Source of the DNA: a virus
DNA length: 40,369 nucleotides
IMG/VR virus record: IMGVR_UViG_3300046008_001187
Coordinates: 1 to 40,369 of that record
Strand: one strand, 5' to 3'
The notes beneath the pieces were generated by a model. That model did no database searches. It saw nothing but the letters and a program-made list of their open reading frames with translations, and had not been told where the DNA came from. Shown piece after piece: positions 2,497 through 40,369 of this stretch; positions within the stretch are counted from its first letter, which is position 1; each line of letters starts with the position of its first letter. A program made the translations under genes and the position numbers.

Positions 2497-2519
2497 AAAA
2501 TTATATCGTTGGACAAATA

Positions 2520-3016: not shown

Positions 3017-5536
3017 TCAAATCACAATTTCACTTTGCACTAAATTTGGGGCTTCGTTTTCGATTCTTCCAGCGCGAACATAATACTTTGCCCCTGTCGT
3101 TCCAGTGCCACGCACGCTAATAACCCCGCCGTCAATTAGCGTCACCAACGATGTATTGCCATCGGTACTTGAAAGCGTCCCGACCAGCAACGGTTCGCGG
3201 GGCAAAATTTGTTTAAATGCAGACCAAACATTCGCTGTTTCCTCGCCTATTAATATTGTTTGCCAGACTTCTTTCAAATTCGCGGTAATGGACACCGAGT
3301 TTACAATTCCGTGAACCAGTGAGCCACCGACATTAACTCGAACCAAATTACCGACATTCGCCAGTGGCATATCTGTTGCGTTCATTGGCAGCGTGAACGC
3401 TTGTAACGATGGCTGCGTGAATTGCCCCGCTAAAATCCGCTCACCCAACGCACGGCAACCAATCGCATCAGTCATTAGCGAGTTTGTGACCGTTTGCGAT
3501 AATCGCCCACCGTCCGTTTCTGTTAAGCGACACCAGCCAATCACCCCGCCCACTTCGCCGCCGTGAATATAAACGCCGTTTGCTTGGGCAGGGGTAACTG
3601 CCCGATAAGTTAGTGATTGCAACGCGCTGTCTGGAATTACCAGGTTTGGTGTTGCTTCTGTAAATTGCCACGGAAGTACAGGGTAACGCGGCGCAATTTT
3701 TAGCGTTCGACTGTTTCGGGACGGAATAACGATTGCGCCAATGTCAGCAGCAATTTCAGAAATAACCTGTATCGGTGTTTTTGCTGTGTATGAAAATGCC
3801 CCAGCAGGGACATTCCAGTTTTGCGCCTGCCAATCAATCATCCACCCGTTCGGAAGTTCTAACTCGGCTAATTGCTGCACGGTAAATAAATCGGCTTGCG
3901 TGGCGGAATGTGGTTGTAAAAACGGTGGCGCGAGCAAAGCGGACAAGCTATGACCCGACAGCCCGATTTCGTCTTTGGCGAAGGTTTTGGTGTGGGTAGT
4001 TTTCTCAGCCAGCACGCGCCACTCAAACCCGTTGATGGTGATGATCATTTCGATAGGCGTGTCGCCCGCTGAAACCAAAAGCGGCAACTGGTCAACGTCG
4101 AGCAATTTACAACTGAACTGCCACGCCCACGAATCAGCGTCGAGCGAAAGCGAAATGCCAGCCACGTTTAGCGGCGTTAAATCAACCAATGTTGCTGTAA
4201 TGGTGTGCTGCATTTGATAAACCGTTTTTGTTGGGATTGTGAATGTGACGACATCGGTTGGCGGCAAAGGTGGTCGTGGTGGGTCGATAACTGTGCCACC
4301 ATTACCGCCTCCACCTCCGCCACTGAATACTTGCCTTTGACTATAAAGAACCTTTGTTGCTTCGGATTTAAAACACGATTTGCGTCCGTTTGACGTGGCT
4401 TTTTTAGTCGCAACGGTTGTCGATAAACGGAAGCCACCACGTTGCACCGATTCAGTTAACCGTTTTTTTGCATCGGTGAACGAATAAACAAAATCGGGTT
4501 CGGCGGTGTAAATTGAAACACTGTCGAAAATGGTGCGAACCGTTGTCACAGGCTTAACGTCAATCAATCCCAAGTCAAAAGCGGGCGTATTTGAAACGCT
4601 CGAAACCAAGTTAAACGCGACGGGAGATTCAGCTTGATAAACGGATTCCGTCAGTGAAAAAATACGCGATGGCGGCTGGGCGGCAATCGTGAACGCGGCT
4701 GCTGGCGTGTACAAATACTCTGACGGCATTTGTTTGTTAAGCGAAACATTAAAAACGTGCGTGGCATCATTCACATCTTCGACAACGAATTCAAAACGTG
4801 AACCAATCGGAATTAACTGCTGCAAATCTGCATTTGTTTTTGAATTGAGCGGTGTTGCTGTTTCAACGACAGATGATAAAACCATCTTTTTTGGAATAGC
4901 CTGCTCATGTTTAAAACTGGTTTTCGCACTGATTTGAAGTGTCGAATCTTGCAATGACACTTTTTCAGTTGATATTTTTAACGTATTTTGCTCAACGGAT
5001 ACCGTTGCTGCGCTGATTTGGTTTGTCGAGTCCTGCTGCGCCTTGACAGAAACGACATTTTTCACGGCGTTCAATTGCAAAAATGCGGCGTTTAGTCGCG
5101 CAGATTTCATTGTTTCCAGCTTTGAATTCACGCCGCGAATAAGTGAGCGTTTGACGTTGGAATCATATTTGCCGTCAAAGAATCCAACACAACCGTCGAG
5201 TACGGTGTTGAATTTGCCAAATATCGGGACAGTTTTACCACTAAAAGTTCCCGTTACGTCATCAAGTTGGACATTAAAACTCCCAATTGCGGGAATGGCG
5301 ATACTGCTGCTAAAAACACCAACACAATCACCAATCTGGGCGCGAAATAATCCAATAATCGGCGCAGGTTGCTGTCCAGCTCCAAAATGAAACGAAACAG
5401 GCGATTTAGGCGGATTAACGCCTTCGTATAAGTCGAATTCAACATTGTAGAATTGAAACTTTATCGGACTACTTGGCGCGGTGTAGCCCGATAAAAACTC
5501 AAATGAAACCTTTTTATCTGGCGGCGTGTAAGACAT
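3017..5536 (-). CDS. phage tail tip / hub-like protein with N-terminal repeats
   Basis: An 839-aa protein, the last gene of the tail operon. Residues about 57-122 contain three short repeats of the type IGxFxxxxDxCVGxF. A low-complexity region rich in Ser, Thr and Gln follows (about 125-230), then a Gly-run linker near residue 405. The C-terminal half (TFTIPTKTVYQMQHTITATL onward; EWRVLAEK, APRYPVLPW, VGNLVRVNVGG) has the feel of a baseplate-hub or late-control domain, as in central tail-tip proteins of siphophages. It probably forms part of the distal tail structure that contacts the host. Its start overlaps the previous stop as TAATG, so translation is coupled. The assignment rests on position and style; no catalytic motif is visible. 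Confidence 0.6.
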   Translation of the reverse strand: MSYTPPDKKVSFEFLSGYTAPSSPIKFQFYNVEFDLYEGVNPPKSPVSFHFGAGQQPAPIIGLFRAQIGDCVGVFSSSIAIPAIGSFNVQLDDVTGTFSGKTVPIFGKFNTVLDGCVGFFDGKYDSNVKRSLIRGVNSKLETMKSARLNAAFLQLNAVKNVVSVKAQQDSTNQISAATVSVEQNTLKISTEKVSLQDSTLQISAKTSFKHEQAIPKKMVLSSVVETATPLNSKTNADLQQLIPIGSRFEFVVEDVNDATHVFNVSLNKQMPSEYLYTPAAAFTIAAQPPSRIFSLTESVYQAESPVAFNLVSSVSNTPAFDLGLIDVKPVTTVRTIFDSVSIYTAEPDFVYSFTDAKKRLTESVQRGGFRLSTTVATKKATSNGRKSCFKSEATKVLYSQRQVFSGGGGGGNGGTVIDPPRPPLPPTDVVTFTIPTKTVYQMQHTITATLVDLTPLNVAGISLSLDADSWAWQFSCKLLDVDQLPLLVSAGDTPIEMIITINGFEWRVLAEKTTHTKTFAKDEIGLSGHSLSALLAPPFLQPHSATQADLFTVQQLAELELPNGWMIDWQAQNWNVPAGAFSYTAKTPIQVISEIAADIGAIVIPSRNSRTLKIAPRYPVLPWQFTEATPNLVIPDSALQSLTYRAVTPAQANGVYIHGGEVGGVIGWCRLTETDGGRLSQTVTNSLMTDAIGCRALGERILAGQFTQPSLQAFTLPMNATDMPLANVGNLVRVNVGGSLVHGIVNSVSITANLKEVWQTILIGEETANVWSAFKQILPREPLLVGTLSSTDGNTSLVTLIDGGVISVRGTGTTGAKYYVRAGRIENEAPNLVQSEIVI

Positions 5537-21283: not shown

Positions 21284-21320
21284 GCGCGTTAGATTGCCCG
21301 TCGTGTATGGGGTTTTCTAA

Positions 21321-21345
21321 TCGCATGGTTTAGTAAAGTACGCGA
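21321..21345 (-). promoter_or_regulatory. candidate late promoter / activator site (PI-like copy)
   Basis: On the minus strand the site is TCGC-N4-TTTACTAAA-N4-GCGA, a 25-bp dyad with a perfect 9-bp palindromic core. The same architecture recurs only at 33790-33814, and both are followed by the shared GCGATTAGAAA. A weak -10-like TACACG lies about 28 bp downstream of the dyad centre, as expected for an activator-dependent promoter. It starts just after a terminator and drives toward the protease gene. In Mu the late promoter PI lies upstream of gene I and is activated by C. The Mor/C-like protein at 33.8-34.1 kb is the likely activator (inferred). Confidence 0.7.
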
Positions 21346-21358
21346 AAAATAGGCAACA

Positions 21359-21385
21359 AAAAGCCCGACAGTTCGTCAGGCTTTT
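21359..21385 (-). terminator. bidirectional rho-independent terminator
   Basis: A stem of AAAAGCC and GAC (21359-21369) pairs with GTC and GGCTTTT (21375-21385), with one internal mismatch and a loop of about five bases. On the minus strand it ends in GGCTTTTTG, a T-run fit for termination. It lies 20 bp beyond the stop of the 144-aa gene and just before the candidate PI-like promoter. It would insulate the small-gene cassette from the capsid operon. Confidence 0.8.
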
Positions 21386-21405
21386 GTGTTTTTACATCGG
21401 TGGTG

Positions 21406-21840
21406 CTATTGGCTTGCCATAAAGGCTTGGTAGCACTCATCGCTCACTTCGATTTCGTCTGGGATAAAGTCGCCAATGTCGCGTCCCATCATAAAACGCT
21501 GGGGCTGGGCGTTGATGTAATAAGGTTCGCCATCCTCGTTGAATGGAGTGGCATAGACAATCCAATCACCCATGCCGCCAAGGTAGCAAAACCCCGCATC
21601 TTCTTTGATGACGAAGCCTGCATATTTTGGGTGGTTACTTTCGTAAATTCCGCCAATTGGCGGATTGGTTGTTTTAATTGTTGCCTCAATCTCGTTGTGT
21701 GGTGGGTCATCGACCTCAATCCAATCGACCACTTCACCTTCTATTTCGCCGTCGTGGTAAGGGCATTCAATGTATTTTTCTAAGCGTTTTTCAAGTGAAA
21801 TGTTGCCGCAAGTGCAGCAAGCAGGATTTCTGATTTTCAT
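21406..21840 (-). CDS. unknown 144-aa protein, last gene of small-gene cassette
   Basis: I do not recognise this protein. It starts MKIRNPACCTCGNISLEKRLEKYIECPYHDGE: three closely spaced Cys and a later Cys/His pair suggest a small zinc-binding head. The remainder is very acidic (EIEGEVVDWIEVDDPP, DGEPYYIN, DIGDFIPDEIEVSDECYQ) and rich in aromatic residues. Small acidic phage proteins can mimic DNA or occlude nucleic-acid-binding sites, which is one possible role but not shown. The ribosome site AAAGGAAAG is strong and matches the sites of its cassette neighbours. The gene is preceded by a GC hairpin at 21863-21882 and followed by a terminator. Confidence 0.7.
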   Translation of the reverse strand: MKIRNPACCTCGNISLEKRLEKYIECPYHDGEIEGEVVDWIEVDDPPHNEIEATIKTTNPPIGGIYESNHPKYAGFVIKEDAGFCYLGGMGDWIVYATPFNEDGEPYYINAQPQRFMMGRDIGDFIPDEIEVSDECYQAFMASQ

Positions 21841-21862
21841 TGTCTTTCCTTTTTGTTGGTTT

Positions 21863-21882
21863 GGCAGGGCTTTCGCCCCGCC
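21863..21882 (-). repeat. intergenic GC hairpin, copy 1
   Basis: On the minus strand GGCGGGGC-GAAA-GCCCTGCC, an 8-bp stem with a GNRA-type tetraloop, lies 9 bp after the 71-aa gene stop and about 20 bp before the next start. Related hairpins lie at 22308-22328, 22761-22782 and 23024-23043, always between small cassette genes. There is no T-run, so it is more likely an mRNA-processing, attenuation or stability element than a full terminator. Confidence 0.75.
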
Positions 21883-21891
21883 GCTGGTTGT

Positions 21892-22107
21892 TTAGGCGAT
21901 ACCCAAAATGTGAAGTTCGTTGTTTGTGTTTGCGTCAACGTTCACCCATTTGCCTTTTAAAAGTCTTTTGTTAACGAGGTCGCTTAGTTCGTCGTAGCCA
22001 AGTCCGCAGCGTCTTACCGTTCTTTCGATGTCTTTGCCAAGGCTGTTGTAGGCAGCCATAAAGGTTTCAAAGTTTCTTTTTGTTTTGTTGCTAATTCTTG
22101 CGCTCAT
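21892..22107 (-). CDS. small winged-helix-like protein A (paralogue 1 of 3)
   Basis: A 71-aa basic protein, MSARISNKTKRNFETFMAAY. By eye it shares a framework with the proteins at 22792-22998 and 23052-23270: a conserved early Phe, a helix ending A-x-R/RR, a Leu-rich helix with L(x)2-D/Q-L, the segment LLxGK/LITGK/LVTGE, a beta-hairpin-like stretch, and a final GI. This is suggestive of a compact winged helix-turn-helix. The ribosome site AAAAAGGAAC is good. It is transcribed behind the second copy of the duplicated leader. A possible role is autoregulation, like Aca proteins of anti-CRISPR operons, but this is inference. Confidence 0.72.
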   Translation of the reverse strand: MSARISNKTKRNFETFMAAYNSLGKDIERTVRRCGLGYDELSDLVNKRLLKGKWVNVDANTNNELHILGIA

Positions 22108-22120
22108 GTTAGTTCCTTTT

Positions 22121-22272
22121 TAGTTCGTTGTTTTAAAAGGCTTTTTTATGCCGTCGGGACACACATTGCCATTGACCATCGTGGTCAGCAAGTTATGAAA
22201 ACCAAAAAGCGCACAAAGCCTGCAACGCTTGGGCTACATGGCGTTTGAAATAGTTTTTTTAGTACCGCACTG
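22121..22272 (-). repeat. duplicated leader, copy 2
   Basis: About 150 bp upstream of the 71-aa gene repeats the leader at 23281-23450. Shared blocks, on the minus strand, include GCGGTACTAAAAAAACT, TTGCTGAC, AATGGCAATGTGTGTCCCG, then ACGGCA and TTTTAAAACAACGAACTA. Between them lies a degenerate version of the hairpin found intact in the other copy. TTGCTG and the AATGTG that follows about 18 bp later might be a promoter. No open reading frame is conserved in the repeat. Confidence 0.75.
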
Positions 22273-22328
22273 CCCACCCTGTTTTTGTTTTCGGTGGGCT
22301 TTGGGTTGGACGGGACTTTCGCCCCGCC
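22272..22328 (-). repeat. two adjacent hairpins after the 134-aa gene
   Basis: GCCCACC (22272-22278) pairs perfectly with GGTGGGC (22293-22299) around a 14-base T-rich loop. Beside it a degenerate member of the cassette hairpin family occupies 22308-22328, immediately after the stop of the 134-aa gene. Together they separate the 134-aa gene from the second leader copy and may reduce read-through. The stems are seen; the effect on transcription is inferred. Confidence 0.55.
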
Positions 22329-22335
22329 ACTGGTT

Positions 22336-22740
22336 TTATTCGGTTATGTCCTGCGCCGCTTTGGCAGCACACAATGCCGTGATGACCTGTGCCAGCGTTT
22401 CGTTTAGGTTCGGCGTGCCTGGGAACTGCTCTTGGTGCAGCCCGCTGGTTGCGAGTTCAAACAAGATGGCGTTGATTACCTGGGTCATTGTCTTTGCGCC
22501 AAACTCGTCGGCGATTTCAACGACCGCCTGTCCAACTTCGCCGAACTCTGTGGCGGCTTCTTTTAATTCGCCTGCCGAAACTTCGTAATTTTCGCCAAGC
22601 ACCGCAACGACCTTTTTTGCCGCCTCGAAAATTACGTCGTTTGCGCGGTCGGTGTCGATGTCGCCATTTTCGTCGAGTTCAAATTCGATGCTTGTCATCA
22701 AATCCAGTTGTTTTTTAGCTTCTTCATTTAATTTTTTCAT
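22336..22740 (-). CDS. unknown acidic 134-aa protein in the small-gene cassette
   Basis: Not recognised. MKKLNEEAKKQLDLMTSIEF is followed by ELDENGDIDTDRANDVIFEA, which may form a helix after an acidic loop; ELDENGDIDTDR has the spacing of a possible calcium-binding-type loop, but this is a weak resemblance. The rest is predicted helical and strongly acidic (GELKEAATEFGEVGQAVVEIADEFG). The ribosome site AAGGAAAGG is good. The gene sits between paralogues B and A, in the position where anti-CRISPR proteins of 50-140 aa lie in related phages. Function is unknown. Confidence 0.68.
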   Translation of the reverse strand: MKKLNEEAKKQLDLMTSIEFELDENGDIDTDRANDVIFEAAKKVVAVLGENYEVSAGELKEAATEFGEVGQAVVEIADEFGAKTMTQVINAILFELATSGLHQEQFPGTPNLNETLAQVITALCAAKAAQDITE

Positions 22741-22760
22741 TGCCTTTCCTTGTTTGGTTG

Positions 22761-22782
22761 GGCGGGGTGTTTAAACCCCGCC
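22761..22782 (-). repeat. intergenic GC hairpin, copy 3
   Basis: GGCGGGGT (22761-22768) and ACCCCGCC (22775-22782) form a perfect 8-bp stem with a six-base AT loop. The flanks (TGTTTAG on one side, TTTCCTTG on the other) match those of the hairpins at 21863 and 23024, although the loop differs. The stem is therefore conserved while its loop varies. Confidence 0.75.
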
Positions 22783-22791
22783 GCTTGTTGT

Positions 22792-22998
22792 TTAGTTAAT
22801 GCCCCAGATTACAAATTTCGCTTTGTTTTGGTTGTTGTAATACATCTTGCCAGTTATCAATTCCGCGAATTTCAAGTCTTCCGCTTGGTTTGCGGTAAGT
22901 TTCGATTCGCGTTGTGCTGCTGCGATGTCGTTGGTTTCTTTAAATGCCAAGATGAGCGATAAAAATTTGCGGTGTGTCGATGCTGTTAATGTTTTCAT
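22792..22998 (-). CDS. small winged-helix-like protein B (paralogue 2 of 3)
   Basis: A 68-aa protein, MKTLTASTHRKFLSLILAFK, with the same framework as A and C: early Phe, helix with AAAQRESKLTANQAEDLKF, LITGK, a short beta-like stretch and final WGIN. The likely fold is a small winged helix, which would bind DNA or a protein partner. A Shine-Dalgarno AAAGGAAAAG precedes it. It lies between hairpins at 22761-22782 and 23024-23043. Divergence from its paralogues is high, which suggests an old duplication or repeated acquisition of members of one family. No database identity can be given. Confidence 0.7.
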   Translation of the reverse strand: MKTLTASTHRKFLSLILAFKETNDIAAAQRESKLTANQAEDLKFAELITGKMYYNNQNKAKFVIWGIN

Positions 22999-23023
22999 GG
23001 TCTTTTCCTTTGTAGTTTTGGTT

Positions 23024-23043
23024 GGCAGGGCTTTCGCCCCGCC
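23024..23043 (-). repeat. intergenic GC hairpin, copy 4
   Basis: Identical over its 20 bases to the hairpin at 21863-21882 (GGCAGGGC-TTTC-GCCCCGCC on the plus strand). It lies between paralogues C and B. The identity over both arms and loop, while the genes beside it are strongly diverged, suggests selection on the hairpin or recent copying. Confidence 0.78.
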
Positions 23044-23051
23044 GTTGTGGT

Positions 23052-23270
23052 TTAAGCCGCGATGCCTGTGAGTTTAAAAATGAATCTTGGTTGGCGTGAG
23101 CCGATGTCAAATTTTGCTTCGCCTGTTACCAAACCCGCTTGTTTGAGTTCTTTAAGCTGGCTGAATGTCAGGTTGGTAGCGCGTCTTGCTTTAGCCAAGC
23201 AGCCTGTTTGTGCGTGTGCGTCTTTCAATTTTTGAAATTCTGCTTTTGTTGCTTCGTTTAATGCGCTCAT
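23052..23270 (-). CDS. small winged-helix-like protein C (paralogue 3 of 3)
   Basis: A 72-aa basic protein, MSALNEATKAEFQKLKDAHA. The start at 23270 was chosen because AAAGGAAAAG precedes it; the longer frame would include the repeated leader. ARRATNLTFSQLKELKQAGL followed by VTGE and a final beta-like segment (RFIFKLTGIAA) is the clearest winged-helix candidate of the three paralogues. It is the first gene of the cassette, directly behind the first leader copy and a terminator. The role is unknown; a regulator of the cassette is a reasonable inference. Confidence 0.72.
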   Translation of the reverse strand: MSALNEATKAEFQKLKDAHAQTGCLAKARRATNLTFSQLKELKQAGLVTGEAKFDIGSRQPRFIFKLTGIAA

Positions 23271-23280
23271 GGTCTTTTCC

Positions 23281-23450
23281 TTTGTAGTTCGTTGTTTTAA
23301 AAGGATTTTTCGTGCCGTCGGGACACACATTGCCATTCAATTTACGTTGTCAGCAAGTTAAGAAAATAAATCGAATCTTTAAAACGCAGAAAGCCCCGTA
23401 GCACTGGGGCTACGAGGCTTTCAGAAAGTTTTTTTAGTACCGCGCTGGCT
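23281..23450 (-). repeat. duplicated leader, copy 1 (with terminator)
   Basis: This copy spans from just after the gpG gene to paralogue C. It contains the intact terminator hairpin at 23389-23422, then a candidate promoter and leader that match copy 2 at 22121-22272. The match runs over most of 150 bp with gaps. It marks the start of an independently transcribed unit inside the head operon. Confidence 0.75.
23389..23422. terminator. terminator-like hairpin after the gpG gene
   Basis: GAAAGCC, CGTAGC pairs with GCTACG, GGCTTTC around a six-base loop, with one internal mismatch. T-runs flank it: seven Ts on the plus-strand side and TGCGTTTT on the minus-strand side. It lies about 30 bp after the gpG stop on the minus strand and would end transcription of the packaging and head-assembly genes before the small-gene cassette. 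Confidence 0.75.
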
Positions 23451-23452
23451 GC

Positions 23453-23914
23453 TTAGTGCATGGTTAGGTGCTGCTCGATAATGTCCACGATGTCCTCAGA
23501 CCACTGGTTTGGCAAAGCCGCCGTTGGCATAAAAGGACGGGCGGGAATATCCCCCCACAAATTTGGGAATTGCGCCTTCTTGCCACCGAAGCTCATCATC
23601 GCGGCTTGCGGGGCGTTTGTGCCAATCGTGACCGACTGTGCGCCTGCCTGAACCGTGAACGAGTTTTTTAAAACGCCCGTGTCGCTCAACGGAACACTTG
23701 AGCCTTGGCGGCGGTTTGCAATCGTGACGGGCGACAACGCCGCCCAGTTGATGCCGTCGGGCGATTTGGTGTCAACGAAACAAAGACGGATGTTCGATTT
23801 TAAACTTTGCCCGATTGAGCGCATTGCTGGTTGCAAATTGGTGACGGAGTTGCCTAGCTGCTGCAACCTTGCGTGCATCTCTGCGTTTTCAATTTGAACG
23901 GTGATGTCGCTCAT
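23453..23914 (-). CDS. virion morphogenesis protein (Mu gpG-like)
   Basis: A 153-aa protein of the Mu gpG / P2 gpS tail-completion family. Family-like features are SPDGINWAALSPVTI, LSDTGVLKNSFTVQ, SVTIGTNAPQAAMMSFGG and IPARPFM near the C-terminus. In Mu it follows the MuF gene (gp30), and here one small gene separates them. It is believed to act in head or tail completion. Its start overlaps the preceding stop in ATGA. It ends just before a terminator, so it closes the first part of the head operon. Confidence 0.88.
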   Translation of the reverse strand: MSDITVQIENAEMHARLQQLGNSVTNLQPAMRSIGQSLKSNIRLCFVDTKSPDGINWAALSPVTIANRRQGSSVPLSDTGVLKNSFTVQAGAQSVTIGTNAPQAAMMSFGGKKAQFPNLWGDIPARPFMPTAALPNQWSEDIVDIIEQHLTMH

Positions 23915-24322: not shown

Positions 24323-26461
24323 TTATACCTCCTTCAATTTAACAATCTGCCTGTTCTCTTTTTTGTCGAACTCGTTTGATTCGATAACAAATTTGCGTCC
24401 GCTTTGAATAAGGATTTCGCTTTCTGTACCGCCATATTCTGACAACTTGCTTATGTCCGAACCTGAGCCGTTTTTCAAGTCAAAGAAAAACACAGTATTT
24501 CCATCGTCCCTGAAATGCGGTATCCCAGTCATTTTTTTCGTTGTGCTTGAGAAGTGGTTTTCAGTAACTTGCTCTCCTACGGCGTATTTTTCAAGTTGTT
24601 TTGGCGTAAGCGACAGGTCGCGCCTGACTTCTCCAGAGTGAACATCTAGCTTTTTCAACGCTTTGTTTAGCACGTCCGTGAACATTGCGGCGGCATCTGA
24701 TTCAGCTTTGGTCACAACGTGTGTTGCCCACTTACCATTCACAGCGTTCAGTCTTCCGAACACTTTGTTTTCAGTGTATGAATAAACCACCTTATGCTCA
24801 AGCTCTGACAAACCCATCGCTCTCGCGTATTCCACTCCGTTTCTATATCTTGGTCTATCGAAATATCCGTCATCGACATCATAAAAATTGAGTGCGGTCT
24901 GGAGTTCTTTCGCATCAGCTGAGGTGTAATTTTTATAGTGAAGGTCGCCATACTCTTTGGCGATTGTCGCTTTAATTTTCGCCATTGATGGCGTTGGGTC
25001 GGATAATGAAGGATTGACCCAGTTTCCTTTGTCATCAAAGTTTTCTGGGAACTTCCATTTCATCGCTTTTAATGTGCCACTGTCCCACGTTGCGGCGATT
25101 GGGTCTTTTTGCGCCCCTTTGAGCTTCGACTTGGGGTTTTGATAACTTCCAGGGACGATTTCCTTTTTTACGTCGTCCCAATCCCAGCTTTCCTCAGTTA
25201 CTGAGTCTTTGATTTTGTTGCCAGTCTTCACGATTTTTGTATTTAACACGCCATCTTGGAATTTATATGGGTGCGAGATTTGAAGTTTGTCGAGATTCTC
25301 TGCCGTAACATACTTTGTGTCTGGGTCTGTTTGTGGCGTTTCGCTGGCTAATTTTTTCGTTGGTGTTGAAACTTGTGCTGGTTTCGGTGCAGGAACAAGA
25401 GCTGGCTTTTTCAACACTGTTTTTGGTTTTGCGCCGCTTCCAGGGGACGCTTCTTTTTTCACATCGTCCCAATCCCACGTTTCGCCCGTTTTTGTATCTT
25501 TGATTTTGTTGCCCGTTTTTACAAGGTCGGGATTAAACACGCCGTCTTGAAATTTATACGGGAACGCTTTTTGAACTTTATCAATATGTTCCTTTGACCA
25601 CGCCTTAGTTGATGGATGGTTTTGTGGCGTTTCGCTGGCTATTTTTGATGCTGGTTTTCCTTTGGGGATTGCCTTTGGCGGAGCATCTGCTGGAGTTTTA
25701 GCGACAATTTTATCAGCGTGCAGCGGGTCGTCTTTTGGCACAACGATTTTCTTTTTGAGTGTTTTCGCCAGCTTTGGTTCGACTGCTTTCGTGGCGGCTT
25801 TCGCCATCTTATCGGCGACCGCCTTGTTGATACCAGCCGTAATATCAGAGCCGCAGTTATAGTCCCAGCCCTTGTCTGGCTTCATTTTGTCGGGTTCGAC
25901 TTTTTTGTTTAAACCGTTGTCGCCGTTGGAGCGGGCTTGTGCTTGTTTTTCGCTGAGAGAAACCACGGAGCATCGACACCTGTACCCGTTGGCGGGGTAA
26001 TGTGCGTCCCAAAATGGGTCGTCAATGCGACGGATAATCCCATCGAGAGCGCGGTGGCTAGGACGAGTACGACTATCGTTAATCGCATCGTACATAAGGT
26101 AAGGTTGGTATTTTTCATTTTCTTTGAACTGCTCCCAATGCCCACGGTTGTAGGCGTTCTGAATGTTTGTGCGAAAGATGTTGTCGAGGCGGTGTTTCGG
26201 CAAACCTAAGTCTTGTACGGCAACTGAATCTTGCCATTGCTTGAACGATTGCCCATCCGCTAATTTTGCGGTCAGCGAATCAAGGACGGCTTGAAGTTGG
26301 TCAAGGCTTGCCACGCCAGCGATTGAGAAGTTTAACTGCCGTTGGATGCCTTGAAATTCACCGTAGTATTGCGCGGGCAACGCAATCCCTCGCGCTTCCA
26401 TTGCTGCAATCGCTTCTTCAAACGGGACGTTAAACCCAACGGACGCTGGACTATCTGGCAT
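24323..26461 (-). CDS. MuF head protein fused to an ADP-ribosyltransferase-like toxin domain
   Basis: A 712-aa protein. Residues about 70-170 are the MuF (Mu gp30 / SPP1 gp7) domain, ending in the conserved WDAHYPANGYRCRCSVVSLS. Residues 272-341 and 370-439 are two copies of a 70-aa repeat (IASETPQ...WDWDDVKKE). Residues about 500-712 resemble a mono-ADP-ribosyltransferase of the R-S-E class: R613/R614 in GEVRRDL, S638-S639-T640 in ENHFSSTT, and the E-x-E pair E680/E682 in GGTESEILI followed by GRKFVIES. MuF proteins are carried in the head, and some temperate phages fuse toxins to them. The start at 26461 overlaps the portal stop by 11 bases; an upstream start at 26488 is possible. Enzyme activity is inferred from motifs. 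Confidence 0.82.
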   Translation of the reverse strand: MPDSPASVGFNVPFEEAIAAMEARGIALPAQYYGEFQGIQRQLNFSIAGVASLDQLQAVLDSLTAKLADGQSFKQWQDSVAVQDLGLPKHRLDNIFRTNIQNAYNRGHWEQFKENEKYQPYLMYDAINDSRTRPSHRALDGIIRRIDDPFWDAHYPANGYRCRCSVVSLSEKQAQARSNGDNGLNKKVEPDKMKPDKGWDYNCGSDITAGINKAVADKMAKAATKAVEPKLAKTLKKKIVVPKDDPLHADKIVAKTPADAPPKAIPKGKPASKIASETPQNHPSTKAWSKEHIDKVQKAFPYKFQDGVFNPDLVKTGNKIKDTKTGETWDWDDVKKEASPGSGAKPKTVLKKPALVPAPKPAQVSTPTKKLASETPQTDPDTKYVTAENLDKLQISHPYKFQDGVLNTKIVKTGNKIKDSVTEESWDWDDVKKEIVPGSYQNPKSKLKGAQKDPIAATWDSGTLKAMKWKFPENFDDKGNWVNPSLSDPTPSMAKIKATIAKEYGDLHYKNYTSADAKELQTALNFYDVDDGYFDRPRYRNGVEYARAMGLSELEHKVVYSYTENKVFGRLNAVNGKWATHVVTKAESDAAAMFTDVLNKALKKLDVHSGEVRRDLSLTPKQLEKYAVGEQVTENHFSSTTKKMTGIPHFRDDGNTVFFFDLKNGSGSDISKLSEYGGTESEILIQSGRKFVIESNEFDKKENRQIVKLKEV

Positions 26462-27938
26462 GAGCGAAACCAATGCAATCAGCAGCAAACGTGGCTCGCT
26501 CTAAAACTTGGCGAAATTTGGCGGTGTCGGTTTCGTCAAAAAGTACCGCTAGACGATTGGCGAGGTCTTCATAATCGCTCGCCGCTTTGATGGCGTTAAA
26601 AATTGAACCTTCGGGAATCGGGCTTTTTAGATTTGCCAACACGTCGTCGGCGAGCGTTTCAATTTCTTGTTGGTTGGGTGTGAATTTGGGAACAATTGTT
26701 CCCAAAAATACGTCACGCTCTGATGTGAATTTAATCGGCTGGTTGGATGCGGCAAAGTTCGTAGATTTCGTTCCGCCAATTGGCGGATTGGAGTTTGGCA
26801 AAACGGCTGGTGGAATCTCAAAATCACCGTCTTCGTAATCATAAACACGCAACAAATAATCAGGCGTGAGTTTCAATATCCCCGCGCTTACCAGTCTTGC
26901 ATCACGCTCGGAACGGTCAACCTCCAAGCCCGTGTTGTCTTCCATGACAAACGTCGGTGGCTCGCCCGTAAATCCGTTTAACGTGTGCAGTGCATTGACC
27001 AACGTCTGCACGTTTTTTGAAACCAACCGAATGTCTGCCCGTTTTCTGTCCTCGAGTACCGATTGATGCACTTTCGCTGCTGCAAATGAACCGCTTGAAC
27101 CTACGTCGCTCGTGAGTGTTTGACCAAGAATGACCTTTTGAATTCTTTTTAAAATTGCGGTTTCAAATTGTTCAAAGGTCGCGCCGTTTTGCTGCACGCT
27201 CATAAATTCTGCTGTCCAACCATCGGGCAATGCCAGCGTGGCGTTTTGCACCGCCGCATTTAACACCGTCGATAATCTATCAACGGCAGGCGTGCCGTCG
27301 GGCAAAGGCATATCAGGCGCAGTCCCTTTTAAAAACGGAATGCCAGCGCGTTCAAGATTCTTCGCCCAGAATTTCCATCCGTTCACGCGAAATAACCATG
27401 CCCAATAAAGCCGCGACAACAACGCTTCGCCGTAAGGTTGGCGGTAAGTTTCGTTGCGAATCGTGAGTAGGAATTTGTATTGCGTATCAACCGCTGTTCC
27501 CATTGGGTCGAGCATCGAACGGTAAATCAAATCGCCATTACTTTTAGGTTCAAACCATTCAAACGGTTTTTCGCTAACTTCTTTTAAGCCAATTCTGCCA
27601 TCAGGTAATTGCTGATAAATCACCTCCTGCACGCTGTAGCCGTATAAAACCGCGTTAAATGCCCCGCGTAATGTGGCGGTAATCACTCGTTCAATTTCAC
27701 GCCATAGAAAGTTATTTTGTCGAACCAGACCCGACTCTAAACGCCACGGCGTAGCAATTAAGGCTTCGCGGCGAGTTTCAATCGCGGCATAAATTTCGTC
27801 ATCGGATTCAAGGGCGCGGAGTTCTTTGCGATGAATGCCCAGCTTTTTTAGTGTCTCGTCGGTGTCCGCCATTTGCAGCAGATTGTTGAGTAAATAATCA
27901 ATCGCTTGTTCGTTATAAAGTGCTTTCGGTGCTGACAT
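26451..27938 (-). CDS. portal protein (DUF935, Mu gp29-like)
   Basis: A 495-aa portal protein that forms the dodecameric ring at the head vertex through which DNA is packaged. Typical DUF935 blocks are TLKKLGIHRKELRALESDDE, ETRREALIATPWRLE, RGAFNAVLYGYSVQEVIY, FEWFEPKSNGDLIYR and YGEALLSRLYWAWLFRVNGWKFWA. The start at 27938 (MSAPKALYNEQ) is preceded by GGAGG and follows the terminase stop by one base; the longer frame runs into the terminase gene. The C-terminus continues the MuF start, so packaging and head genes are coupled. Confidence 0.93.
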   Translation of the reverse strand: MSAPKALYNEQAIDYLLNNLLQMADTDETLKKLGIHRKELRALESDDEIYAAIETRREALIATPWRLESGLVRQNNFLWREIERVITATLRGAFNAVLYGYSVQEVIYQQLPDGRIGLKEVSEKPFEWFEPKSNGDLIYRSMLDPMGTAVDTQYKFLLTIRNETYRQPYGEALLSRLYWAWLFRVNGWKFWAKNLERAGIPFLKGTAPDMPLPDGTPAVDRLSTVLNAAVQNATLALPDGWTAEFMSVQQNGATFEQFETAILKRIQKVILGQTLTSDVGSSGSFAAAKVHQSVLEDRKRADIRLVSKNVQTLVNALHTLNGFTGEPPTFVMEDNTGLEVDRSERDARLVSAGILKLTPDYLLRVYDYEDGDFEIPPAVLPNSNPPIGGTKSTNFAASNQPIKFTSERDVFLGTIVPKFTPNQQEIETLADDVLANLKSPIPEGSIFNAIKAASDYEDLANRLAVLFDETDTAKFRQVLERATFAADCIGFAHAR

Positions 27939-33759: not shown

Positions 33760-33789
33760 ACATTAAGGATTTGTAGATGAGGTTTCTAA

Positions 33790-33814
33790 TCGCGTGGTTT
33801 AGTAAAACGTGCGA
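33790..33814 (-). promoter_or_regulatory. candidate late promoter / activator site (Plys-like copy)
   Basis: The dyad TCGC-N4-TTTACTAAA-N4-GCGA on the minus strand is the same as that at 21321-21345, with conserved flanks TTTTCGC and GCGATTAGAAA. A -10-like TACAAA lies about 30 bp downstream of the centre. It sits between the activator gene and the holin, the location of Plys in Mu. Binding by the Mor/C-like protein is inferred. Confidence 0.7.
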
Positions 33815-33825
33815 AAACTTGAGAT

Positions 33826-34131
33826 TTATCGAAACAAATCGCCTTGACGTTTTTTACGTTGAAGACCGATGATTTTGCAGATTTGTTGGTAGCTCAAGTC
33901 GTATTCTCGACAAAGCGCAACATGATTTCTCCCATTAAATTTTGACCAGATTTCATCATTACGAGAGGTGAGTTCTTTTGATTTTGGCAGATACAACGGT
34001 ATTCCGCCGTAATTTTTACGGAATTCCCATGTGACCCTCGTGCTTATACTGTCCGCGACTTCCGATTCAATTGCACAGGCTTTGAGTTCACGCGCCAAAA
34101 ACTCGCGCATTTCAGATAAGAAATTCGACAT
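33826..34131 (-). CDS. Mor/C-family late transcription activator
   Basis: A 101-aa activator of the Mu Mor/C family. The N-terminal dimerisation part ends in the characteristic NYGGIPLYLPK, and the C-terminal helix-turn-helix is NHVALCREYDLSYQQICKII. In Mu, Mor activates the middle promoter and C activates the late promoters; only one member is present here. The gene is preceded by GGAGG and a perfect TATAAT -10. It lies directly before the late operon, beside one copy of the 25-bp dyad that is its likely target. It is the rightmost gene with clear phage identity. Confidence 0.92.
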   Translation of the reverse strand: MSNFLSEMREFLARELKACAIESEVADSISTRVTWEFRKNYGGIPLYLPKSKELTSRNDEIWSKFNGRNHVALCREYDLSYQQICKIIGLQRKKRQGDLFR

Positions 34132-34298: not shown

Positions 34299-35555
34299 TT
34301 ATTTTTCACCTGCTGCTATAAAATCACGATAAGTTTTATCCCATTCCATTTTTGGAAATTTTTCTTTTATTGCAATTAAAAAATCGGACTGATTTAGCGT
34401 TTCAAAAGTAACGTCTTTGTAACGTTTTTCAATTTTCATTTCTTTGATAATAGATTCTGATTTTGGGAAAACCCGCTCCAACTCGCTATCTAGCCAACAT
34501 TCAACATCTTCTTCCGAAAGTGCTTCTGAAAGTAATTGTCCTCTCAGAGAATCGGGAGGGTTTTTCATAACCGTTGGTTTGTAATAATCAATTACTTGCT
34601 TTCGTGAATTATTAAGCAACATTTGAAGTTCTTCTTCTACTTTTGTCTGATGGTTCTTCAGCTTTATTTGAAATTCTTCAATACGTTTTTCAAAAAGTGG
34701 TTTTGCGGCTTTCGATAAAACCCGTCCATGATTTTTACCCAGAGACTTTGCAAAATTATCACGAATTTCGTTAAACTCCCCCTCCAATATTTTTGAGGAT
34801 AATGCGTCATTTTTTTCAATTAAATCGAAAGTAGTCTTTAATCTTCCCTCTAAGTCTTTGCCAGCACCTAATTTTTGAATGCTTATTGGTATTGCCAGTT
34901 TATGCCGCTGTATTGCAACACCAGTTAGGCTAAGTTCAACATACTGAAAATAAGATTCAAATACTCGAACCTGTCTGGCAATATCAAACTTTACAGGAGG
35001 TGCTAGCTTTAAACTTTCATCAACACGCTTGAATCTTTCAACATCCACTTCGATTGAAGTGATTTCGACGGGTAAATTTGATATACGCTCTTTTTCTTCA
35101 ATCGTGGTAGCTTGAGCGACTGCAATGGCTTTAGCGGCTGGCGATAATCTAGTGAGAGCTTCTTTTGTTTGTTCTGGTGATAATCGCAATGCGTTAATTG
35201 CCGTTGTATTTTCAGCTTCTAAATACAACGGAGTTGGCGTGTAGCTATAACCGTCATCATCAACAATTAGCAGGGCTTGGCGTATTCCCTCGGCATGATT
35301 AACAATCATCCCCGCTTCACGAAGTAAATTGATTGCCTCCAAACTTCCATATCCCAAACGCAATGTTCGTTCGTCAAAATCAATCGATACAGTTAGCATT
35401 TCAACGCCGAGTTTTTTTGATGCTTCTACGAGAGCCTGTGCGGGTTCAAGTTGGATGCTTGGCGCAGAGTAGCAAACAGTTGTTTCTGCCTCGCTTATCA
35501 ATTCTGCGATGCGTTTTGAAGTGAGGTTACAAAAGATATTTTCATTTTTAGACAT
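34299..35555 (-). CDS. unknown 418-aa protein, possible PLD-like N-terminus, coiled coil
   Basis: The last gene of the three-gene operon. Residues 1-115 (KRIAELISEAETTVCYSAPS, KKLGVEMLTVSIDFDERTLRLGYGSLEAINLLREAG, RQALLIVDDDGY) have the beta-alpha pattern of a phospholipase-D-like module, but no HxK motif is visible, so any nuclease activity is doubtful. Residues about 230-330 are long charged helices, probably coiled coil. The C-terminal 90 residues (CWLDSELERVFPKSESIIKE) are unrecognised. The start overlaps the ATPase stop as TAATG, so translation is coupled. The family is not known to me. Its partnership with an SMC-like ATPase and a methyltransferase suggests a defence function, by context only. 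Confidence 0.6.
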   Translation of the reverse strand: MSKNENIFCNLTSKRIAELISEAETTVCYSAPSIQLEPAQALVEASKKLGVEMLTVSIDFDERTLRLGYGSLEAINLLREAGMIVNHAEGIRQALLIVDDDGYSYTPTPLYLEAENTTAINALRLSPEQTKEALTRLSPAAKAIAVAQATTIEEKERISNLPVEITSIEVDVERFKRVDESLKLAPPVKFDIARQVRVFESYFQYVELSLTGVAIQRHKLAIPISIQKLGAGKDLEGRLKTTFDLIEKNDALSSKILEGEFNEIRDNFAKSLGKNHGRVLSKAAKPLFEKRIEEFQIKLKNHQTKVEEELQMLLNNSRKQVIDYYKPTVMKNPPDSLRGQLLSEALSEEDVECWLDSELERVFPKSESIIKEMKIEKRYKDVTFETLNQSDFLIAIKEKFPKMEWDKTYRDFIAAGEK

Positions 35556-36922
35556 TATTTCAAACCTTCCAAAGCCATTTCCAATTGTTCAATTACCGCG
35601 ATAGCCTTACCGACTTCATTTTTTGTAATATCAACGATGCGTGAATGGCTTAATGGATTAAGCACTACAGCCCGATAAAGTTCAACATTACTCACCAGTT
35701 CTGGGTCGAGTCCAAATGCTTTCACCGCTTGCCAAAAATCTTCACTTTGTAATTTTTTCGCATCTTTGCAATATCGAACACTTAATTTTTTCTTGTCACA
35801 AAAATTCTTTAACGTAATTTCAAAAGCTGTCCGCGCATAAACCGCCGCCGCTTTATAATCACCATTCAACAAGTATTTGTTTGCTCGCTCTAAATCATTT
35901 TCATAATCAATCGGCAAAATAGGCGATTTCACATCATTCGGGCAATAAAACTCGGCGTACTTCCATTTCCATGCTTTGTTGGCTTCTGTTCGCATTTTCA
36001 TCATGTCAAACCACAGTTTGTCATGCGTGATAAAGAAAATTTGATGCTCAGAAAAATGTTGTTCCAAAATATCAATCACAGGCAAACGATTTGCCATATC
36101 CAAGCCAATTAAAACATCGTCTAACGCTAAAATTCGTAAATCACTTTTTGGTTGTTCTAACAATGACGCAAAATAAATTGATAATGCAATTGCCGATAAT
36201 CGCGCTTCATTTAAAAAATCATGGTGGGTTGGAATTGAACGATTAAAAAACTTTATATCGAGCCACAATATCTGCATCACAACGCTAAATGTGAAATTAC
36301 AAATGATTTGATAATCAAAGAAAGCCAGTAACTCATTGGTTTTATCCGTCAAATTAGCCAATGCTTTTTGAAGTACGTCATTCATGAAATGCAGTTCTTC
36401 TGGATATTCTTTTTTGTAAGTATTTGTGTTCTTTTTGGCTTTTGATTTTTTCTGTACACTTTGCCAAATTTCACCAATCGTTCTGCCCGAACTGGATTCC
36501 GTATAATCAACGAGCAAATTTTCAACTAACAAATGAAACAAATTAACGCTTTTTTCTTCTTGCTTGCGGTGTAAAAAATGTGTTTCCAACAAACTTTTAT
36601 AATCTAAAAAGCCTTTGGTTTTATTGGCATCCAATATAATCGGCGCGTCTGGAAATTTCGCTGGCAACCATTCATAAGCATTTTTGCCAATGGTTAATTT
36701 AACGAAACCATCGTCATCATCTTTAACAAAAATGTTCCGATGTTCTGAAAATTCAGTTTTGGCATTCGCCGATTCTAAAAACAGTTTCAGCGCGTAAAAC
36801 AGCGACGATTTACCACTGCCATTTTCACCATAAAGCAGCAGATTTTTACCACCGAGTTCAATTTCAAAATTACCGTAAAACGCTCTGAAATTTTGGATTT
36901 CAATTTTTTTAATTCGCATCAC
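35555..36922 (-). CDS. SMC-like AAA ATPase with C-terminal HEPN/DUF4145-like region
   Basis: A 455-aa protein (or 454 from the ATG at 36919; the GTG at 36922 gives the longer form). KKIEIQNFRAFYGNFEIELG and the Walker A GENGSGKSS at 32-40 are typical of ABC/SMC-like ATPases. Walker B is ILALDDVLIGLD (D268-D269), where a second Asp replaces the usual Glu. H300 in FFITHD is the switch histidine. Residues about 345-455 (NGDYKAAAVYARTAFEITLK ... YRAVVLNPLSHSRI) look like a HEPN/DUF4145 helical domain with R417 and H426. There is no long coiled coil. The gene overlaps its neighbours at both ends. A role as sensor or effector of a defence operon is inferred. Confidence 0.82.
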   Translation of the reverse strand: MMRIKKIEIQNFRAFYGNFEIELGGKNLLLYGENGSGKSSLFYALKLFLESANAKTEFSEHRNIFVKDDDDGFVKLTIGKNAYEWLPAKFPDAPIILDANKTKGFLDYKSLLETHFLHRKQEEKSVNLFHLLVENLLVDYTESSSGRTIGEIWQSVQKKSKAKKNTNTYKKEYPEELHFMNDVLQKALANLTDKTNELLAFFDYQIICNFTFSVVMQILWLDIKFFNRSIPTHHDFLNEARLSAIALSIYFASLLEQPKSDLRILALDDVLIGLDMANRLPVIDILEQHFSEHQIFFITHDKLWFDMMKMRTEANKAWKWKYAEFYCPNDVKSPILPIDYENDLERANKYLLNGDYKAAAVYARTAFEITLKNFCDKKKLSVRYCKDAKKLQSEDFWQAVKAFGLDPELVSNVELYRAVVLNPLSHSRIVDITKNEVGKAIAVIEQLEMALEGLK

Positions 36923-39900
36923 GCTTTACCTTCAATAATTCTGACCACAGGCACGCTATCTAAGAAAAACAGATTGTTATAAAGCGGATGGTTTTTGTCA
37001 GTTAAGCGTCGAACAATTTGTTTCAACGCGCTAACCTTATCGCCTTCAATGACATCTAAATCAGGCAAATTCTCTTGAACAACCAAACTCATAAACTGTT
37101 TTTTGGCTTCGTGTAATTCCTCTGGGAAATACAACTCATAAACCAGCGCATCAATTAAATTTTCAAAGAAATTCGACATCAAACGTTCTTCGGCAAAATC
37201 TAAATCTGCTGAGGTATAAAAAGGCTGTTGCTTGATAAACAAAATATAATCAACCAATCGGCTTACCAATTGTTGTTGATTTTCGTCCGATTTATACACG
37301 GGAATATCTAACAGCGGTTCTTTGTCGAGTTGATAATTCTGCCCCTGCATTTTGCCTTTGTTTTTGAGCCAAAACGCCACGAGTTTAGAATTCAAAACTG
37401 CCGTTAAATACTTCAAATCAATTCGTTCTGATTTGATGACATAAAAAGTCGCTGACACATAACAATCAAAATCCGTGTAAGTAAAAATCGGCTCACCAAC
37501 ACACTTTCTCAACGCAATAATTTTTTCACCTTGAAAAAAATACTCATTACGCGCTCTGTGCAATCCATAAGGTTTATTGTCTGACGTAATTACGCTTTGA
37601 AATTGGTCGAGATGTTTTTTGATATTCGGATAAGGTTCGATATTCGCCGCATCTTTAAATGTTGAACCCGTGTAAATTATCCATTCTTTGTTTTCTTTTT
37701 TGCCACACCATTTACGCAATTGCTCAGTTGTAAAATATGGTTTTATCAACTCAAGTTCTTTCCCATTTAAATTTAAATCTACTCTTTCTTTTTCACTTAA
37801 AACAAAAATTCCCTGACCAACCTCAAAATTATCTCCTAATACGCTTTGTGTAGCTTTGCTAACGTAGTCGTAATGCGGGTGAATTCCGTTTGCTACTTCA
37901 TTCTTTGTTAGATGAAGATTGCTTTTCTTTTGAATTTTGGACAAAACATTATCAAGCGCGTTATTGCTGAAAGTGAGTGATTTACCATCTAAATCATTTT
38001 TTGAAATTTTGGCAGATAAGAATTCATTTTTAGGTGATTTGGTTTTTGTTATCAAATCCAGTGCATCATTAAACGTTAATTTATCACCGACTAAACGTCT
38101 AAAATCGAAAGTGTAATTGTCGTTACTGTTGTCATTTCTAAACATCATCACGGACGTTTGAATGTCAGCACTTTCAAAAATCATGTAACTACCAAAATCT
38201 AACAGTTTTTCAATCGTGGTTTCTTTCAAAACTTTACTTCTCATTTTGGAAGCACCCGTATTTGTCGTCCAGTTATTGGTTGCAATAAAAGTCAAAATGC
38301 CAGTGTTCTTTTTGGTAATTTCAAGATTTTTGCAAACGAACAAATACCATAAATCCATTTTTCCTTGGTAATAAGGTGAATCTCTTAAACCATCAAAAGC
38401 AGCTTTATTGGTGTATTCTTTTATGTAAGGCGGGTTTCCGATGACAATATCGAAACCACTTTCACCAAACATCCACTCAACATCAAAAAAACTTGCACTT
38501 GCATTTTGGTCGTAAGAATTCCAACTCAACAGTTGTTGTACCGTGTTATTTTCGCCGCCGTGTTGCTCTAGCAAGGTGACAATTTCTTTCCGTAATTCTT
38601 TGTCCTCATCTCGATACTTTTGTTTTTTACTTGGATTTCTCGCACTGAACAGTTTATGTCTAATTTCTTTTAAGTCTTTCTTTAAAATTTCAACGTCTTT
38701 GTTATGAAACAAATCAATTTGTGATTTGGAATTTTCAATACCGATTAGTGTATTTGCGGCAACGAATTTTGTTTCTAAATTTGGAAGTGGTAAGACACCG
38801 AAATTTTTATCTGGTTTATCTCTATCAATTCGTTGGTCAACAATCAACGAAATGAAAAACCGAAGTTTGCTAATTTGAATAGCAATTGGTTGAATATCAA
38901 CGCCATAAATACAATTTTCAATAAGATAAAGTTTTCGAGAATAATTGACTTCATTGTCGGTGAAAGTTTCAATAATACGCTTTTGTAATTTGAAATCTTG
39001 AACACGGTCGATTTGCCGTTTTTTCCATAAAATGTTGTGTGGGTCGATTTTTGTCAGAACAAAAACCAATTTGTGTAAAACACCCATTGGAAATGCTCCC
39101 GAACCACAAGCAGGGTCAAGGATTTGGCAAGTATCAATCGCTTTAATTAAGGTAGTTTTTTCAGTTGCTGAAAATTCAGGCGTAGCCTTTGTATAACTAA
39201 ACAAATCCTCTAATCTTTCAAATAAATCAGTTTTGCGTGAAATTCCAACTAAATCATGGTCGCCAAGTAAATTACTAGCATTCAAACTTTCCAGTTTTGA
39301 TTTGAAATAAGCCTTTAACGATTCATCCACCATGTAATCGACAATTTCGCGGGGCGTATAAAAGCTACCTGTTTGCTTACGCGCTGTGGTTTTGGTTTCA
39401 GGTGTGTAACTGGCAAGTAAATTTTCAAATACTTGTCCAAGCAACTCTGGGTCGAGTGCAATATCTTCTTCAACGGGTGTGTTTTCGGTAATGGTAAATT
39501 TGTAGCTTTTTAAAATATCGATTAAGCCTCTAACCTCAACAGCTTTGTTTTTTGCACCAAGATCATCACTTAAATCGACGTTTTTATATGAACCAAAGAA
39601 AATATAGTCTGGAACGTCGAGCTGATTATTACTGTCATCTGAAAAACTGTCTTCACAAACAATTGCATCACCGCATGGATTTCCTTCAGCATCAAGAACG
39701 TACTTATCCAAGCAATCAAACAAGCCACCATTCATAAACGGAACAATGTTTTTAACTAAATCTAAAAACACTTCCGAATCGTTAAAATACGATTGGTAGT
39801 GCATTAAAGTTGTATCTTTTTGATTATTGGGAGAACAAAATTTTCTTTCTTTAACTACCCGATTAAGTGATGCAAAAAACAAATTTTGCAAAATAGCGCG

Positions 39901-40369
39901 GTAATAATGACTTGTATTCGCTTTAACTGTGTCACTGATTTGAGGTTTGAAATCGTTTAATTGCGATTTAATCCAGTCTTCATTAAATAAATTTTCTGGA
40001 ATTAGATTTTTTTCTTTGATAAACCAAACGAATAACAAACGGGTTAGCAGTCGAATAAGATTTTTTGCGTTATGTTCTCGGACTTTTTTTGAATCTGCAA
40101 AAACGCTTCCCTTTACTGACTCGATTTGTTCGGCATCAGGAAAATAAACTTCATCTATTGCCCAGAAATACCATTGCGACAATTCTTTATAGAACTGTTT
40201 GTTAAGCATTTTGGTATCTAAAATGGCTTGCCAAGCGTTGTGTAAATCAACAAAATTGGCATCGGCTTTCAAATTCAAATTATCAAATGCTAACTCTTCC
40301 AAAATAGCTACATGAGCAGAGTGAGGTTTGTTGATATGAATATCTTTAAGTAAGGTAACTTTTTCTAAA
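36919..40369 (-). CDS. Eco57I-type DNA methyltransferase / type IIG-like protein, 5' end off window
   Basis: At least 1149 residues are visible. The frame stays open to the right edge through KDIHINKPHSAHVAILEELAF, so the real start lies outside the window, and the TTG at 40302 should not be used. Motif order is N-terminal LLTRLLFVWFIKEKNLIPENL, GSFYTPREIVDYM, motif I DPACGSGAF (about 39093-39119), motif IV NPPY (38425-38436), then a C-terminal TaqI-like target-recognition region ending near YQLDKEPLLDIPVY. This is the gamma-class N6-adenine methyltransferase arrangement of Eco57I-like proteins. No PD-(D/E)XK nuclease is evident in the visible part; one could be in the missing N-terminus. Stop and next start overlap, so it is co-translated with the ATPase. 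Confidence 0.87.
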   Translation of the reverse strand, partial: LEKVTLLKDIHINKPHSAHVAILEELAFDNLNLKADANFVDLHNAWQAILDTKMLNKQFYKELSQWYFWAIDEVYFPDAEQIESVKGSVFADSKKVREHNAKNLIRLLTRLLFVWFIKEKNLIPENLFNEDWIKSQLNDFKPQISDTVKANTSHYYRAILQNLFFASLNRVVKERKFCSPNNQKDTTLMHYQSYFNDSEVFLDLVKNIVPFMNGGLFDCLDKYVLDAEGNPCGDAIVCEDSFSDDSNNQLDVPDYIFFGSYKNVDLSDDLGAKNKAVEVRGLIDILKSYKFTITENTPVEEDIALDPELLGQVFENLLASYTPETKTTARKQTGSFYTPREIVDYMVDESLKAYFKSKLESLNASNLLGDHDLVGISRKTDLFERLEDLFSYTKATPEFSATEKTTLIKAIDTCQILDPACGSGAFPMGVLHKLVFVLTKIDPHNILWKKRQIDRVQDFKLQKRIIETFTDNEVNYSRKLYLIENCIYGVDIQPIAIQISKLRFFISLIVDQRIDRDKPDKNFGVLPLPNLETKFVAANTLIGIENSKSQIDLFHNKDVEILKKDLKEIRHKLFSARNPSKKQKYRDEDKELRKEIVTLLEQHGGENNTVQQLLSWNSYDQNASASFFDVEWMFGESGFDIVIGNPPYIKEYTNKAAFDGLRDSPYYQGKMDLWYLFVCKNLEITKKNTGILTFIATNNWTTNTGASKMRSKVLKETTIEKLLDFGSYMIFESADIQTSVMMFRNDNSNDNYTFDFRRLVGDKLTFNDALDLITKTKSPKNEFLSAKISKNDLDGKSLTFSNNALDNVLSKIQKKSNLHLTKNEVANGIHPHYDYVSKATQSVLGDNFEVGQGIFVLSEKERVDLNLNGKELELIKPYFTTEQLRKWCGKKENKEWIIYTGSTFKDAANIEPYPNIKKHLDQFQSVITSDNKPYGLHRARNEYFFQGEKIIALRKCVGEPIFTYTDFDCYVSATFYVIKSERIDLKYLTAVLNSKLVAFWLKNKGKMQGQNYQLDKEPLLDIPVYKSDENQQQLVSRLVDYILFIKQQPFYTSADLDFAEERLMSNFFENLIDALVYELYFPEELHEAKKQFMSLVVQENLPDLDVIEGDKVSALKQIVRRLTDKNHPLYNNLFFLDSVPVVRIIEGKA

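Follow-up and report, generated by a model that had tools for sequence, protein, structure and literature searches.

The window analysed here, 40,369 bases long, corresponds to one complete IMG/VR record. On its minus strand, portal and F are followed by a 136-aa gene and G, then by five small genes, and these in turn by I, the decoration protein and the major capsid protein. The small genes are five minus-strand open reading frames with good ribosome sites that occupy positions 23270-21406, and they fill the slot between a homologue of Mu G and a Mu I-type protease. The features of this slot, together with the late control elements elsewhere in the window, are:

33826..34131, minus strand: Mor/C-type late transcription activator (phrog_532, E 9e-23)
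33783..33806, minus strand: second late-promoter motif, before the holin gene
23453..23914, minus strand: G homologue (Phage_tail_S / neck protein; PF05069, E 2.6e-19; phrog_26, E 5e-28), left border of the slot
23271..23452, minus strand: leader A, from the G stop to gene 1, with A-tract, terminator hairpin, conserved block and the gene 1 ribosome site
23389..23422, minus strand: terminator after G, a scan hit with a 14-pair stem, conserved in relatives
23313..23331, minus strand: leader block AATGTGTGTCCCGACGGCA, copy A, exact match
23052..23270, minus strand: gene 1, winged-helix-like, 72 aa, pI 10.0, weak HTH_34 match, paralogue of genes 2 and 4
23024..23044, minus strand: GC hairpin 1, between genes 1 and 2
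22792..22998, minus strand: gene 2, paralogue of gene 1, 68 aa, pI 9.6
22760..22783, minus strand: GC hairpin 2, between genes 2 and 3
22336..22740, minus strand: gene 3, acidic protein, 134 aa, pI 4.2, charge -16
22309..22329, minus strand: GC hairpin 3, after gene 3
22108..22280, minus strand: leader B, the second leader copy, upstream of gene 4 (repeat families D2, D9 and D11, spacing 1164-1175)
22149..22167, minus strand: leader block AATGTGTGTCCCGACGGCA, copy B, exact match
21892..22107, minus strand: gene 4, diverged paralogue of genes 1 and 2, 71 aa, pI 9.6
21863..21886, minus strand: GC hairpin 4, between genes 4 and 5
21406..21840, minus strand: gene 5, acidic protein, 144 aa, pI 4.3, charge -17
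about 21356..21385, minus strand: terminator after gene 5, read by eye
21314..21337, minus strand: late-promoter motif before I, TTTACTAAACCATGCGATTAGAAA
20357..21283, minus strand: I protease (head maturation; phrog_3244, E 2e-30), right border of the slot

Against their homologues in other phages the cassette genes showed dN/dS values of 0.04-0.40, and we therefore regard them as real. An earlier note on this DNA had listed five unrecognised genes of 68-144 aa between G and I; open reading frames, ribosome sites, profile searches and dN/dS all agree with this description. None of the five proteins matched a family in Pfam, PHROGs, NCBIfam or PDB profiles, and the PDB profile matches that did appear were dismissed as being at chance level only. 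Genes 1, 2 and 4 are related to each other, as pairwise alignments against shuffled sequences gave z = 9.9 (genes 1 and 2), 5.1 (1 and 4) and 3.9 (2 and 4). The AlphaFold2 model of gene 1 (pLDDT 77) has the order H-H-H-E-E, with helices at 6-22, 25-31 and 36-45 ahead of a two-stranded hairpin, which is the winged-helix order. A Foldseek search with this model returned nothing significant (best E 0.44), and several winged-helix regulators were among its top hits. Genes 1, 2 and 4 encode basic, probably winged-helix proteins. In the alignment, gene 5 combines an exchangeable N-terminus bearing cysteine motifs with a constant C-terminal domain of about 84 aa; its model reached a pLDDT of only 40. 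Gene 3 (82-97% identity in eight other loci, dN/dS 0.11-0.29) and the C-terminal domain of gene 5 (dN/dS 0.04-0.20) are strongly conserved and not fast-evolving. A gene 3 homologue was absent from one pattern-based scan of genome contigs and present in G221, a genome from another set.

The leader of roughly 180 bp is kept ahead of the first cassette gene, as seen in an alignment of 12 copies from 10 phages, and the gene behind it varies: gene 1, 2, 4, 5 or an unrelated 98-aa gene. The last of these encodes an unrecognised cysteine-bearing protein and, in the relative L065 (3818-4114), heads the cassette after the conserved leader. Exactly two copies of the block AATGTGTGTCCCGACGGCA occur in the window, with none expected and none found in shuffles, and IMG/VR matches to a related leader-block pattern fell only on contigs of the same phage group. 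In relatives, the terminator after gene 5 differs in its bases and retains the stem and T-run. The late-promoter motif TTTACTAAACCAYGCGATTAGAAA likewise has two copies in the window and no more, one ahead of I and one ahead of the holin gene, and was found in none of 100 shuffles. In Mu, the lys and I promoters depend on C (PMC4461284), and both sites in the window correspond to the places of these promoters. A scan of the cassette region found no sigma-70 promoter, and no operator was identified. The terminators on either side, the ribosome sites and the late-promoter copy just after the cassette bear out the anatomy of an independent unit that had been proposed for it.

At each junction of neighbouring genes a GC hairpin precedes the ribosome site. 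A hairpin was present at all 24 junctions examined in ten phage records, and at 22 of them the MFE z was -2.3 or lower. As variable lengths of stem and loop led MAFFT to misalign the hairpins, pairing was assessed for each of them separately; the stems differ in sequence yet pair, as in GGCGGGGC/GCCCTGCC, CTGGGGC/GCCCCAG and GCAGGGGC/GCCCCTGC. T4-like phages possess comparable repeated, hairpin-bearing intergenic elements (promoter early stem-loop, PeSL) between small, probably host-directed genes, and these are thought to aid gene shuffling. In contrast to PeSL elements, no promoter motif was recognised in the hairpins described here, from which the leader stands apart as an element of its own. 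New beyond the earlier note are the paralogy of genes 1, 2 and 4, the duplicated leader and the intergenic hairpins.

The Mu-type traits found in this phage are the Mor/C activator and the late gene order; in the relative L066 the same Mor/C gene matches PF08765 (E 6.5e-20). The relative L003/L066 is identical to the window over a stretch that starts at the high-coordinate end of the window and includes the cassette and the capsid genes. The window encodes a tyrosine integrase, and the early genes of L066 comprise an integrase, an excisionase-type HTH protein, a CI repressor and an HTH_36 gene. No DDE transposase was recognised in a scan of ten early open reading frames of L066; a PF02914 search on the same question was uninformative, since its control was silent as well. 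The label of a Mu-like phage hence holds for the late module, with its Mor/C gene, gene order and late motifs, but not for the mode of integration: the phage is Mu-like in the late module only and, as far as seen, not transposing. A large defence-like block (window 34299-40302; L066 7294-17075) separates the CI repressor from the Mor/C activator and encodes a helicase with a PLD domain (1073 aa), an Eco57I-type methylase (1307 aa), an AAA ATPase (455 aa) and a 418-aa protein without family match. Furthermore, an MqsR/MqsA-like toxin-antitoxin pair is located between the integrase and the tail genes (window 2191-3002). In the F protein (window 24323-26488) the C-terminal part is only about 35% identical in L058 and L059, against about 77% for the N-terminal part, and this variation among relatives suggests a possible exchange of modules within F.

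Relatives were gathered with the capsid protein, gene 3 and gene 5 as queries. Homologous loci between G and I were found in them, and their contents vary:

window, L003 and L004: gene 1, gene 2, gene 3, leader, gene 4, gene 5
L010: genes 1, 2, 3 and 5
L006: genes 2, 3 and 5, with a HipA-like kinase and a 288-aa gene
L005: genes 3 and 5 (contig start), with a DUF4062 protein
L015: genes 1, 3 and 5, with RnlA/RnlB on the opposite strand
L058 and L059: genes 1, 3 and 5
L065: a new 98-aa gene, gene 2 and gene 5, with a 211-aa gene
G221: a gene 1-type gene at one contig end; on another contig genes 3 and 5, with an AAA ATPase and a 193-aa gene on the other strand
L063: gene 5 only
L014: a Rha regulator gene
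L012 and L013: empty

With more than six arrangements, one of them empty, the genes between G and I are variable and dispensable in the manner of the accessory region RGP G. Between the window and L015, dS was 0.46 for gene 1, 0.66 for gene 3 and 0.87 for the gene 5 C-terminal domain, compared with 2.38 for G, 1.41 for I and 2.02 for the capsid gene; between the window and L065 it was 0.36 for gene 2, compared with 1.45 for I and 1.90 for the capsid gene. Gene 5 is an exception to these low values in the latter pair (1.58). Since cassette dS lies below flank dS in the same phage pairs, the cassette genes probably move between phages. The simplest reading would be an exchange of genes 1 to 3 between lineages, and selection on synonymous sites could also lower the cassette values.

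Defence-type genes stand beside the cassette in some relatives, namely RnlA/RnlB, HipA_2, DUF4062 and AAA_21 with a partner gene. Judged by its gene content, the G-I slot is an accessory hotspot, partly of the defence type. In L100 (9389-11370), an AAA_21 ATPase (464 aa) and an unrecognised 193-aa partner on the opposite strand form a candidate defence pair, in the slot where L015 has RnlAB. In L006 (3907-5564), a HipA_2-like kinase (264 aa) is directly followed by the unrecognised 288-aa gene, and the two are a candidate two-gene defence module. Hotspots that exchange anti-phage systems are described for P2-like phages and P4-like satellites (PMC9122126). Both cases share a variable site in temperate phages with exchangeable anti-phage systems, whereas the exchanged module of the present group has beside it a small-gene cassette that recurs and brings its own leader.

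The JBD30 record has, in this order, a Phage_tail_S protein (G), AcrF1 (PF20829), a winged-helix gene, which we take to be aca1, and the Mu I protease, in agreement with the claim that the cassette sits in the slot of the JBD30 anti-CRISPR locus. The two loci also resemble each other in that small accessory genes accompany a winged-helix gene, a probable one in the present phage, and in that the content is variable and dispensable. In contrast, the proteins are unrelated, with no recognised protein family in common, and the locus described here has three paralogous winged-helix-like genes, a duplicated leader and a hairpin per junction; several of its genes are common across the group, and the phage is one with a tyrosine integrase. 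For the Mu-like phages of P. aeruginosa, the anti-CRISPR genes are described as residing in an accessory region, RGP G (PMC4378225).

Two lysogen genomes from the same family allowed a view on the hosts: G007, the MAG 'uncultured proteobacterium MJ-time_bin-5735', and G221. Each has a gene for a member of the particulate methane/ammonia monooxygenase family (PF02461, E < 1e-115), and the hosts are therefore most likely methanotrophs. G007 has two kinds of CRISPR array with Cas1 genes, presumably I-F-like and I-E-like as typed from their repeats, and G221 has an array of 53 spacers beside a Cas1 gene, whose repeat resembles type I-C. About 100 spacers of these two genomes gave no match to the phages beyond chance. 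Among 594 candidate spacers of the host family, a comparison with the phage group gave one partial match only (window 4198-4229). It was not counted as a target: a 26-base stretch with 2 mismatches is followed by further mismatches at the expected seed end, and there is no CTT flank. Two short matches in genomes of the host family (L087 and L097) were rejected as spacers because they lie outside arrays.

The accessory cassette is real and modular and looks independent, and the slot that it occupies is one known for anti-CRISPR genes. We lean towards an explanation in which the G-I gap would serve a group of integrative methanotroph prophages as an accessory (moron) hotspot with a leader-driven cassette of regulators and host-directed effectors. 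Motif and anatomy place the slot at a transcription boundary, where the late operon from lysis to G stops at a terminator and the I operon restarts from its own late promoter. Directly past the terminator a separate transcript would begin in the fixed leader, behind which small genes are loaded in varying combinations, each set off by a GC hairpin and ribosome site. For the products of genes 1, 2 and 4 the most likely role is regulation of the unit through binding to its leader, comparable to that of Aca proteins in acr operons. The acidic products of genes 3 and 5 are most likely directed at the host, e.g., at a defence system, or at a superinfecting phage. CRISPR is a possible target of theirs and not one specifically indicated. 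Against this explanation speak the negative results of the Foldseek search with gene 1 and of the search for a sigma-70 promoter and an operator; moreover, genes 3 and 5, with no recognised function, could also regulate the phage itself.

That the unit controls lysogeny or superinfection, with winged-helix proteins and acidic partners tuning the neighbouring defence modules or the late operon and no target in host defence, seems rather unlikely to us. Three paralogous, putatively DNA-binding proteins in one slot, the Rha regulator gene that fills the slot of L014 and the late promoter directly downstream would fit such a role, but several phages that lack a defence module have the cassette as well (window, L010, L058, L059), and the close relatives L012 and L013 are without it. 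As a quite doubtful extension of the hotspot explanation, we may speculate that the locus is a docking site, in which one fixed leader serves a series of hairpin-separated one-gene cassettes that prophages gain, lose and exchange, and that these carry new anti-defence families directed against I-C, I-E or I-F CRISPR or other systems of methanotrophs.

The earlier note had named the two larger acidic proteins as the best candidate inhibitors of CRISPR or other host defence. A true anti-CRISPR operon, in which gene 3, gene 5 or both inhibit a type I CRISPR-Cas system of the host and genes 1, 2 and 4 are Aca regulators, appears improbable to us. Of that proposal, the slot shared with AcrF1 and Aca1 of JBD30, the small acidic proteins adjoining basic winged-helix-like ones and the defence modules in relatives stand, and the lysogen genomes do bear CRISPR arrays. 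However, a search for known Acr or Aca homology in Pfam, NCBIfam and PHROG found none, with AcrF1 of JBD30 recognised by Pfam as positive control, and purifying selection has kept genes 3 and 5 conserved. Neither lysogen has a spacer that targets the phages, and therefore nothing demands an inhibitor. The absence of self-targeting removes the strongest supporting signal that was sought and does not thereby disprove inhibition. That these are ordinary small virion or assembly genes, as their place among the head genes might suggest, is highly improbable: L012, L013 and L014 have the G, I, decoration and capsid genes without them, which refutes virion components conserved in all relatives, and the set turns over gene by gene among relatives.

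For the host-directed genes expected in the accessory hotspot, the cassette is a good lead, with CRISPR blocking by its products as a hypothesis. With the constant leader and the hairpins as markers, all cargo genes of this phage group can be located easily. Furthermore, our analysis points to the slot that holds anti-CRISPR genes in Pseudomonas Mu-like phages as a cargo site also in a distant group with another integration strategy and another host. As the slot appears to be reused there for accessory cargo, its position may be used to mine both anti-defence and defence genes.
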